From a virus: a stretch of DNA of 34,265 bases. Shown here piece by piece: positions 9,337 through 27,380 of the stretch. Each line of letters opens with the position of its first letter. The first letter of the stretch is position 1. The notes beneath the pieces are model-generated. The model made no database searches and was not told the DNA's origin. It saw nothing but the letters and a program-made list of their open reading frames with translations. Both the position numbers and the translations under genes were made by a program. The stretch covers positions 1 to 34,265 of the IMG/VR virus record IMGVR_UViG_3300048112_000090. One strand, 5' to 3'.

Positions 9337-10347
9337 ATGAATATTAATCAACTTGATTTATTCTCAGGAATTGGAGGCTTCCACTTAGGACTTGAAAAAG
9401 CAGGTTTTAACGTGGATTCTTATTTTTCGGAGGTAGATAAACACGCAATAGCAGTTTACAAGAATCAATTCAAAAACGCAACTTATGTCGGATCAGTTAC
9501 AGATGTTCGAGCAGAACAATTACCAAAAATTGACATTATCACATTCGGAAGTCCTTGCCAAGACTTTAGCCTTGCTGGAAAACGTAAAGGGATGGAAGGA
9601 GATAGAAGCTCCCTTATTAACGAAGCAATTCGACTCATCAAGGAGTGCAGACCAAGTGCTTTTATCTGGGAAAATGTTAAAGGAACTTTCTCCTCAAACA
9701 ATGGCGAGGACTTTTGGGCGATTATCCAAGCCTTTGCCAACATTGGGGGTTATAGACTTGAATGGCAACTGCTTAATACAAAGTGGTTTCTACCCCAAAA
9801 TAGAGAGAGAGTCTACCTTGTCGGATATCTTGCAGAAGGAAGTGGAGGAGAAGTATTTCCTATCCGAGAAAGTAGTAAGCAGATTAATGAGTTACAAGGA
9901 CAACAAGCAAACACCTGTACACTCACAACAAGATACGATGCAGGAGGGAACGGAAGTTACCTTATTGAACGTAAACTCAATGCACAAAAAGTCAAAATAA
10001 AATCAGCAACCAAAAAAGGTTACGAAGAGGCTGCACAAGGCGACAGTATAAACTTTTCAGTTCCTAATTCTAAAACTCGTAGAGGAAGAGTAGGAAAGGG
10101 AGTTGCTCAGACATTAGATACTAAATGCGAACAAGCAGTCTTATTAGACCAGGTTAGAAAATTAACACCAATAGAATGCGAAAGGCTTCAAGGGTTTCCT
10201 GATAACCATACATCCATAGGTAATTATGATGGACAAGTGAAAGAGGTAAGTGATGCTCAAAGATACAAAATGTGTGGGAATGCAGTAACAGTTGATGTAG
10301 TAGAAGTAGTAGGAAGAAACTTAATCAAGATGATAAACAAACAATAA
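9337..10347 (+). CDS. dcm: DNA cytosine-C5 methyltransferase
   Basis: The 336-aa enzyme has the C5-MTase motifs in order: I DLFSGIGGFHLGL (residues 7-19, S-adenosylmethionine binding), IV GSPCQDFSLAGKRKG with catalytic Cys74, VI ENVKG (Glu112), VIII QNRERVYLVGY (from Gln154), IX RKLTPIECERLQGFP and X RYKMCGNAV. It would methylate cytosine in phage DNA, probably to evade host restriction, and no partner restriction enzyme is seen. The recognition sequence cannot be predicted, because the target domain lies in the variable region about residues 180-270. It starts the P4 operon and contains a long second reading frame (see 9485). Confidence 0.95.
   Translation: MNINQLDLFSGIGGFHLGLEKAGFNVDSYFSEVDKHAIAVYKNQFKNATYVGSVTDVRAEQLPKIDIITFGSPCQDFSLAGKRKGMEGDRSSLINEAIRLIKECRPSAFIWENVKGTFSSNNGEDFWAIIQAFANIGGYRLEWQLLNTKWFLPQNRERVYLVGYLAEGSGGEVFPIRESSKQINELQGQQANTCTLTTRYDAGGNGSYLIERKLNAQKVKIKSATKKGYEEAAQGDSINFSVPNSKTRRGRVGKGVAQTLDTKCEQAVLLDQVRKLTPIECERLQGFPDNHTSIGNYDGQVKEVSDAQRYKMCGNAVTVDVVEVVGRNLIKMINKQ
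9485..10000 (+). CDS. Possible overprinted protein inside the methyltransferase gene
   Basis: A 171-codon frame, +1 relative to the methyltransferase, starts with ATG at 9485 and overlaps methyltransferase codons 50-221. Its N-terminus MSDQLQMFEQ and its segment STLSDILQKEVEEKYFLSEK resemble, from memory, short proteins encoded with phage C5 methyltransferases and the inter-motif region of some methyltransferases. An uninterrupted 171 codons is unusual in AT-rich DNA. No ribosome-binding site is evident, but this genome hardly uses them. It may be a real overlapping gene, or a frame kept open by the methyltransferase coding constraint. Confidence 0.45.
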   Translation: MSDQLQMFEQNNYQKLTLSHSEVLAKTLALLENVKGWKEIEAPLLTKQFDSSRSADQVLLSGKMLKELSPQTMARTFGRLSKPLPTLGVIDLNGNCLIQSGFYPKIERESTLSDILQKEVEEKYFLSEKVVSRLMSYKDNKQTPVHSQQDTMQEGTEVTLLNVNSMHKKSK

Positions 10348-11972: not shown

Positions 11973-12200
11973 ATGGAAGACAAGATAGTACAGACAGTTA
12001 TAGAGGCTTATAAGGAGCGTTCTAAGGTAGGAATAGAAAAATACGGACAGACAATGGAGAGAGAAGATTTAAGTGCCTTAGACTGGCTACAACATCTCCA
12101 AGAAGAATTAATGGATGCAACTTTGTATGTTGAGTCCTTGAAAAGAAAATACAGATTACTAACAACAGGAACAATGAAAAACATAGAACTATGGAAGTAA
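11973..12200 (+). CDS. Small helical phage protein of the KYG...RxDLS type
   Basis: The 75-aa product has KYGQTMEREDLSALDWLQHLQEELMDATLYVE, a pattern common in short phage proteins that I associate with all-alpha NTP-pyrophosphohydrolase-like (MazG-related) helices, where the E-x-x-x-D residues could bind metal. The set is too short for a complete MazG site, so a catalytic role is uncertain. It overlaps the Mom-like gene by 10 bp. Confidence 0.6.
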   Translation: MEDKIVQTVIEAYKERSKVGIEKYGQTMEREDLSALDWLQHLQEELMDATLYVESLKRKYRLLTTGTMKNIELWK

Positions 12201-12823
12201 AAAGCATACAGAATTATGAATGTAAGGATTGGTTTTTAAATAAGCACTACGCAAAAAGAATGTGTAGTATATCTTACGCTTTTGGATTATATATTAATGA
12301 TGTTTTAAATGGTGTTTGTACTTTTGGATTTCCTCCAAACTATAATTATAATAATGGAAAATGTGTGTTTAACGAATATGAATGTTTGACACTTGAATTA
12401 AATAGATTAGTCGTAAACGATGGACTTCCAAAAAATACACTATCTTATTTCGTTTCTAAATGCTTAAAGATGCTACCTAAACCAAACTGTATAGTTTCTT
12501 ATGCTGACCAAAATCAAGGACATAATGGTTACATTTACCAAGCGACAAATTGGATTTATACAGGTGTAAGTACGCCAAAACATAAATACGTTTTTGAAGA
12601 TGGTAGTACGTTTGATATTAGACGTGGAATTGATAACAAAGGAAAGGTAGTAGACAAAATACTAATGAAACCGACACACAGATACTTATACTTTAATGGT
12701 AGTAAAACAGATGTTAAGAAAATGAAAGCAGACTTAAAAATGATTGTGTATGAATACCCAAAAGGAAATAATAAAAGATACGATGCAAGTTATAAACCAC
12801 AAACACAGATAAAAATGTTTTAG
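12191..12823 (+). CDS. Mom-like DNA adenine modification protein (GNAT-type fold)
   Basis: The 210-aa protein matches the Mom family in its order of motifs: NKHYAKRMCSISYAFGLY (residues 17-34), ELNRLVVNDGLPKNTLSYF (69-87), then IVSYADQNQGHNGYIYQATN (101-120) and W121-I-Y-T-G. Phage Mu Mom converts adenine to a carbamoylmethyl form, protecting phage DNA from many restriction enzymes. Paired with the C5-methyltransferase at 9337, this gives two independent DNA modifications. In Mu, mom is tightly regulated; here it sits at the end of a small-gene run with no separate promoter seen. Family recall, not search, underlies the call. Confidence 0.75.
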   Translation: MEVKSIQNYECKDWFLNKHYAKRMCSISYAFGLYINDVLNGVCTFGFPPNYNYNNGKCVFNEYECLTLELNRLVVNDGLPKNTLSYFVSKCLKMLPKPNCIVSYADQNQGHNGYIYQATNWIYTGVSTPKHKYVFEDGSTFDIRRGIDNKGKVVDKILMKPTHRYLYFNGSKTDVKKMKADLKMIVYEYPKGNNKRYDASYKPQTQIKMF

Positions 12824-26435: not shown

Positions 26436-27380
26436 ATGAGAGTAATTGAATTAATCATTGACGAAGAGCAAGAGTTCTCAGGTATAGAAGCTATCTCGAT
26501 AGTAGACAAACCTGCGATACAGGAAGATTTTATAGCATTGTCTAAACAAGACAAGGTGCAACTTGCTGACGTAGATACAGACAAGAGAATCCTTATGGGT
26601 GCTGCTTTGATTCCTAATAAGAACATCTATCGTCAAGATAGCGAGGAAGAAGAAGGGTATTATATCTATTTCTCAGAGGCGACAGTCAAAAAGGCTTCTG
26701 AATTATTCTTAATCGAAGGAAACCAAAACAAATCTACCTTAGAGCATCAAGCAGAGCTAAGTGGATTGTCAGTAGTTGAATCCTGGATAGTAGAAGATGA
26801 AGTCCACGACAAATCACGTAAATATGGCTTAGAAATGCCTGTTGGAACGTGGATGGTATCTATGAAAGTAAACAACGAAGATGTTTGGCAAGATTACGTA
26901 AAAACAGGTGCGGTAAAAGGGTTTAGTATTGAAGGCTATTTCTCTGAGGCAATCAGTTTAAGCGTTTCTGAGGAGGTTGAATTGAAAAGCTTTAGTGATT
27001 ATCCTGAAAGCGTAAAGAACAACGCTAAGAGAGCCTTAAAATGGGCTGAGGAGAATGGTTGGGGTTCTTGTGGAACAGGAGTTGGTAAACAACGTGCCAA
27101 TCAATTAGCGAATGGAGAGGCAATCAGTTTAAAGACTATAAAACGTATGTACTCCTATCTAAGCAGACACGCACCTGATTTGGATTCAAGTAAGTCCTAC
27201 GAAGACGGTTGTGGTAAACTAATGTACGATGCTTGGGGTGGTAAATCAGCTTTGAGTTGGGCAAAAACAAGAATCTCAAGAGAGGAAAATATGTCAGAGC
27301 TATCAGAAGAAGAGGCACAATTTGTACTTGATAATTTAGGCACATTGATACAAGATAAGTTGAACGAATTAAAATCCTAA
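26436..27380 (+). CDS. Prohead protease (XkdF-like) fused to a C-terminal domain
   Basis: The N-terminal part of this 314-aa protein matches XkdF-type head maturation proteases: RILMGAALIPNKNIYR, YYIYFSEATVKKASELFL, STLEHQAELSGLSVVESWIV and GTWMVSMKVNNEDVWQDYVK, then VKGFSIEGYF. His in STLEH and the WIVEDEVHD region are likely active-site elements. From about residue 186 a separate domain begins (YPESVKNNAKRALKWAEENG, with TIKRMYSYLSRHA), common beside or within phage proteases. It should process scaffold and capsid. It directly precedes the scaffold and capsid genes, in keeping with that job. Confidence 0.8.
   Translation: MRVIELIIDEEQEFSGIEAISIVDKPAIQEDFIALSKQDKVQLADVDTDKRILMGAALIPNKNIYRQDSEEEEGYYIYFSEATVKKASELFLIEGNQNKSTLEHQAELSGLSVVESWIVEDEVHDKSRKYGLEMPVGTWMVSMKVNNEDVWQDYVKTGAVKGFSIEGYFSEAISLSVSEEVELKSFSDYPESVKNNAKRALKWAEENGWGSCGTGVGKQRANQLANGEAISLKTIKRMYSYLSRHAPDLDSSKSYEDGCGKLMYDAWGGKSALSWAKTRISREENMSELSEEEAQFVLDNLGTLIQDKLNELKS

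Follow-up and report, generated by a model that had tools for sequence, protein, structure and literature searches.

In positions 1 to 34,265 of the IMG/VR record IMGVR_UViG_3300048112_000090 (34,265 nucleotides, one strand; hereafter the window), a phage gene for a C5-cytosine DNA methyltransferase (C5-MTase, or MTase) contains a second gene on the same strand, read in the +1 frame. The outer gene (9337..10347, + strand, taken as frame 0) encodes 336 amino acids (aa) with motifs I-X. The nested gene (9485..10000, + strand) encodes 171 aa from an ATG at MTase codon 50 to a stop at 9998-10000; it lies entirely within the MTase open reading frame (ORF) and spans motifs IV, VI, and VIII. That the +1 frame encodes a protein maintained by selection is practically beyond doubt. 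We further propose, with a probability of about 0.7, that this protein is a small subunit that would act in trans by supplying a connector element missing from the MTase itself. The original prediction, made from the sequence alone, had described a 171-codon ATG frame at 9485-10000 on the C5-MTase gene, and its coordinates, frame, length, and sequence were all borne out.

The +1 frame is kept open beyond chance. An IMG/VR scan with the MTase yielded 74 loci, and 36 non-redundant relatives were used for the selection tests. The frame is open and similar in loci L001-L060, and distant MTases without the nested gene carry 8-22 stops in the corresponding frame. Over the overlap core, the 36 relatives together contain one +1 stop, against 7.6 expected per locus when synonymous codons were redrawn from codon usage (1 of 36,000 draws stop-free); a chance ORF was rejected on this comparison. 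A gentler control, in which the actual codons were permuted, gave an expectation of 2.6 +1 stops, with 663 of the 36,000 draws free of them. Breakage in close relatives, which the original prediction had named as evidence against an overlapping gene, was confined to a single relative of the 36, L016 (3136-3266), which retains the ATG but has a stop within the 5' part of the frame.

Synonymous diversity and substitution rates showed that both frames are constrained. The synonymous diversity of the MTase, relative to the expectation from codon usage, was 0.1-0.7 within the overlap, as against 0.8-1.0 outside. At three-codon resolution, the ratio was about 0.95 at codons 31-36, 1.0 at codons 43-45, and 0.54 at codons 46-48, and then 0.19, 0.15, and 0.05 from codon 49 on, next to the nested ATG at codon 50. 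Substitutions were counted in four classes by our simplified version of the OLGenie approach. The rate of changes silent in the MTase and altering the nested protein (dSN) was 0.136 in the overlap, whereas the flanks had values of 0.34-0.42. For the 3' half of the overlap, dNN/dNS was 0.35, compared with 1.0 in the 3' flank, and dSN (0.10) was lower than the reverse class, dNS (0.17), so that here the nested protein constrains the sequence more strongly than the MTase does. The locus therefore shows two features of a same-strand nested overlapping gene, a frame open beyond chance and purifying selection at the protein level in both frames. The comparison of substitution rates proposed with the original prediction thus revealed constraint on the nested frame, in support of its view that two meaningful frames here amount to a true overlapping gene.

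The start region of the nested gene (9470..9487, + strand) consists of an A-rich leader and the ATG, and was delimited by the alignment of the ATG and by the synonymous drop. The alignment places the ATG at an identical position in 30 of the 36 relatives; it lies three codons upstream of that position in L044. In L032, L053, L055, L056, and L059, an ATG follows shortly downstream of a +1-frame stop, and the presence of a stop directly 5' of the ATG favours an independent start of translation. In streptococcal relatives, an AAGGAG-like stretch precedes the nested ATG by about 12 bases. From these features, we infer that translation of the nested gene begins at its own ATG, at 9485.

The nested protein matched phrog_16143, labelled 'DNA methyltransferase' (E=1.9e-8, residues 1-134 to positions 2-135 of the 139 in the profile), which agrees with the resemblance to short phage-methyltransferase-linked proteins suggested in the original prediction; 22 of 25 records tested match the same profile. 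A Pfam search with the nested protein matched no family, and the nested alignment had no match at E<=10 when it was searched as a profile against the PDB. The NCBIfam search gave only a sub-threshold match to Dcm (PRK10458) over residues 102-142, which is not significant (E=0.073) but is consistent with the connector element described below. The profile phrog_1008 (329 positions) was considered as a possible unnested relative, but its matches were weak and confined to the nested frame, and 16 further records gave none. An AlphaFold model of the nested protein alone had a pLDDT of 49, highest at residues 110-136. The low value weakly suggests that folding may depend on a partner.

The outer C5-MTase is intact. 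It matched PF00145 over residues 4-331 (E=6.7e-69), and it has motifs I, IV, VI, VIII, IX, and X and the S-adenosylmethionine (AdoMet)-MTase fold of that family. In its AlphaFold model, the core mostly exceeds a pLDDT of 90, and the best PDB matches of the predicted structure by Foldseek were M.HaeIII and M.HhaI. All of its motifs are read on the + strand in frame 0, and their invariant columns were taken from the translation and alignment A5. Three of them, found within the overlap as the original prediction had stated for motifs IV-VIII, are motif IV (PCQ, 9553..9561; P73, C74, and Q75), motif VI (ENV, 9670..9678; E112, N113, and V114), and motif VIII (QNRERVYLVG, 9796..9825; Q154, N155, R156, E157, and R158). 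The bases of motif VIII also encode KIERESTLSD in the nested frame. A segment of the target recognition region, VKIKSATKKGYEEA...GVAQTLDT (9991..10122), starts at the end of the nested gene, and it is followed by motifs IX (RKLTPIECERLQGFP) and X (GNAVTVD) at 10156..10296, with the invariant columns R274...F287, G314, and N315.

Canonical C5-MTases have in frame 0 a connector of the form FxFPKxE-L-LxDILexxVxxKYxLS, which follows motif VIII and precedes the target recognition domain. No such element is present in frame 0 of the window MTase. Towards its C terminus, the nested protein reads FYPKIERESTLSDILQKEVEEKYFLSEK, with the pattern FYPK...LSDIL..V..KYFLS, and this part aligned by hhalign to the frame-0 segment directly after motif VIII in canonical C5-MTases (E=3.8e-6 and 7.5e-6). 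The connector-like element comprises nested residues 102-136, FYPKIERESTLSDILQKEVEEKYFLSEKVVSRLMS (9788..9892, + strand, +1 frame), as defined by hhalign and by reciprocal hidden Markov models (HMMs). An HMM built from the in-frame segments scored a median of 22.9 bits in the +1 frame of the nested-gene loci and -2.05 in their frame 0, whereas an HMM trained on the nested proteins scored 21.9 bits in frame 0 of the canonical loci and 2.7 in their +1 frame. Among 159 distinct MTases, scanned with a low score threshold, the element was found only in the +1 frame in 95, only in frame 0 in 42, in both in 13, and in neither in 9, several of which are truncated. The +1 scores of the 13 with both were 5-11 bits and mostly came from reading across stops, and we thus took them as background. 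The segment of M.HhaI corresponding to the nested element is FQFPKPFELNTFVKDLL, at the junction of the large domain with the small domain. The recognition segment of the window MTase closely resembles that of MTases with an in-frame connector (alignment A3). Its retention together with the absence of the connector from frame 0 suggests that the part is needed and is supplied from elsewhere.

We regard the arrangement in L116, L132, and L139 as the strongest single observation on the element. In these loci, an extra region puts about 240 codons between motif VIII and the nested element, and LSDILE..KYFLS.KAC.GILRRAEKRGK is kept over an MTase linker unrelated to motif VIII; the conservation of the element is therefore independent of motif VIII beneath it. 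The extra region is partly common to the three loci (L116 4155-5897, L132 279-3023, and L139 2432-5209).

The nested frame is widespread. A tblastn search with the nested protein matched 243 phage records, and in all of the annotated records whose coordinates were checked, the match was in the +1 frame of the annotated gene. The checked records were those of Methanobacterium virus Drs3; the Streptococcus phages Bonnie, IPP53, phi-SsUD.1, and Javan261; Solobacterium SMO_1P, Ruminococcus NatCom_3870, NatCom_43819, and P1 dmt; and Vibrio 1.171, Pseudomonas TC7, Mycobacterium Porcelain, and Enterobacter CobraSix. The frame also occurs in an Enterococcus phage, and phages with it cover Bacteroidota, Bacillota, Pseudomonadota (P1 dmt), and Actinomycetota, in addition to a methanogen. 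A C5-MTase was present in the -1 frame in all 53 IMG/VR loci reached via the nested protein (13) or the nested DNA motif (40) and in all 47 loci from bacterial genomes; a free-standing, non-overlapping nested gene was sought among the loci found by the nested protein or motif, and none was seen. Among plasmids, 533 records matched, 449 of them from Escherichia, and they are mostly P1-like in size and annotation. In the dmt gene of phage P1 (L083 2722-3210), the +1 frame is open for 163 codons within the C5-MTase half and is unannotated in the P1 record, as is the nested ORF in most of the sampled records. It has been annotated in phage MM1 (ORF14) and in Streptococcus thermophilus phage P0093 (P0093_47), and its existence has thus been noticed, at least by annotators. 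In the literature searched, no paper was found that describes the nested frame in phage MTases. A survey of Streptococcus phage peptides mentions a cytosine methyltransferase peptide, the sequence of which is absent from the passages concerned.

In a tree of 108 MTase cores, the enzymes with the nested gene were separated from the others by a single branch (support 80/89), and a single change sufficed in 81% of the bootstrap trees. The tree is consistent with one ancient event, although long branches make this uncertain. We lean towards the view that a large clade of phage C5-MTases, including P1 Dmt, consists of gene-in-gene heterodimers that arose by a one-time displacement of the connector, which joins the catalytic domain to the recognition domain, into a nested gene that spans motif VIII.

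The mechanism that we consider most likely is as follows. Frame 0 codes for a C5-MTase that has motifs I-X and lacks the connector found in canonical enzymes, and the nested +1 gene would provide a small protein with the connector element as its C-terminal part. The small protein would bind to the large one, complete the domain junction in trans, and be required for activity, so that one DNA stretch would give both subunits of a phage DNA-modification enzyme. The likely purpose of this enzyme would be to protect the phage DNA from host restriction. Several points weigh against the proposal. With about 35 aa, the element is short, and convergence could account for its resemblance to the canonical segment, even though the match is reciprocal. 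The first 100 residues of the nested protein have no known match. The scan for the element spanned the families reached in this analysis, and L109-L148 were found via the nested motif itself (L001-L060 were found via the MTase). In addition, as the tree suggests one origin, the contrast between the +1 frame and frame 0 counts as one event rather than many.

The product may instead be real but act alone, for instance by regulating, by inhibiting a host restriction enzyme, or by modulating specificity, with the nesting being only historical. Such a role would account for the N-terminal 100 residues, which are unmatched in canonical MTases and yet conserved within families, and for Lactococcus phage 4268 (L291 1254-1977), in which the nested frame is intact despite an MTase frame that stops shortly past motif VIII. 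We nevertheless consider it unlikely, since the nested gene was found only atop a C5-MTase in all of the sampled viral and bacterial loci, and its best-conserved part resembles the very MTase segment that is missing from the frame-0 protein. Another objection would be that the conservation in the +1 frame is a shadow of the conserved MTase protein or of an RNA or DNA element. Motifs IV, VI, and VIII do fix part of the +1 sequence (WENV, for example, forces GKM). However, conservation of the frame-0 protein cannot cause the suppression of synonymous sites, dNN/dNS and dSN indicate selection at the amino-acid level in the +1 frame, and the element is kept over unrelated MTase sequence in L116, L132, and L139. 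This explanation was rejected on these three grounds, and we assign it almost no weight.

Ribosomal frameshifting is another conceivable source of a +1 product, which would then be a hybrid of the N-terminal half of the MTase and the C-terminal half of the nested frame rather than an independent protein. Some unusual loci have such a layout. In Faecalibacterium phage FP_Toutatis (L088 2096-3516), the N-terminal motifs of the MTase are read in one frame into the nested C-terminal element, and the remainder of the MTase is read in a different frame and has a motif I-like segment at its end, as though a rearrangement had occurred; the gene caller chose the nested frame. In L281 (2474-3676) and L114 (9218-10348), the MTase frame is cut short and the nested frame extends over the recognition region as far as motifs IX-X. 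This alpha/beta layout resembles the one described for split C5-MTases and is possibly a natural split or a frameshift error. These three are single genomes or metagenome contigs that may carry sequencing errors, and we do not rest the argument on them. A hybrid is also at odds with the synonymous drop at the conserved ATG, with the +1 stop directly before it in several relatives, and with the suppression of synonymous change over the entire nested ORF rather than the 3' part alone. We therefore consider frameshifting improbable, and retain the trans-acting subunit as the preferred explanation.

The proposed subunit can be compared with known divided enzymes. The small polypeptide of M.EcoHK31I, 176 aa long, was reportedly found by Lee, Kam and Shaw in 1995 to be encoded inside the large gene, in an alternative frame. 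Both M.AquI and M.EcoHK31I are known two-polypeptide C5-MTases, with motif IX of M.EcoHK31I on the small polypeptide and the recognition-domain region of M.AquI divided between the two (PMC3404938). M.EcoHK31I (YGGCCR) divides its C5-MTase activity between a large polypeptide and a small one, as is proposed here, and the window pair may work in the same way. In the window, however, motif IX is in the large protein in frame 0, so that we do not file the pair under the M.EcoHK31I type, for which motif IX is only on the small polypeptide. The division of a C5-MTase over two polypeptides also recalls M.AquI, in whose type motifs IX-X are on the small subunit; in contrast, both motifs are in the large protein here, and the small protein carries only an element preceding the recognition region and sits inside the large gene. 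Profile phrog_16143, MM1 ORF14, and P0093_47 represent the same nested frame and sequence family and are labelled only 'methyltransferase'; none of the sampled records ties the nested ORF to a displaced MTase element. M.HhaI and the C5-MTases with an in-frame connector (the A3 set and Bacteroides phage SJC10) have the catalytic fold in common with the window MTase, and the A3 set also has a similar recognition-domain segment, but their connector follows motif VIII in frame 0, whereas the connector-like element of the window locus is in the +1 frame.

Two other genes in the window were noted. A Mom-like DNA modification gene (12191-12823, +; PF25680 E=5.4e-31, phrog_1384 E=4.6e-52) is the second DNA modification gene of this phage and is unrelated to the C5-MTase. 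A protease-like protein encoded at 26436-27380 (+; Peptidase_S78_2 E=1.1e-13) also matches phrog_1530, labelled DNA methyltransferase (E=8.5e-15), a PHROG label that is doubtful.

A long same-strand nested gene conserved in phages of several bacterial phyla and in an archaeal virus is unusual. The original prediction had seen neither this breadth of the family nor what the nested protein resembles. The gene is present in the model phage P1 and in hundreds of P1-like E. coli plasmids, yet it is mostly unannotated in the sampled records, and gene finders that do not permit complete overlaps will overlook it. Should the subunit role prove true, the phage C5-MTases of this clade that were tested as single proteins may have lacked their partner, and the change of frame of the connector element would become a case in which the displacement of a domain by overprinting can be tested.
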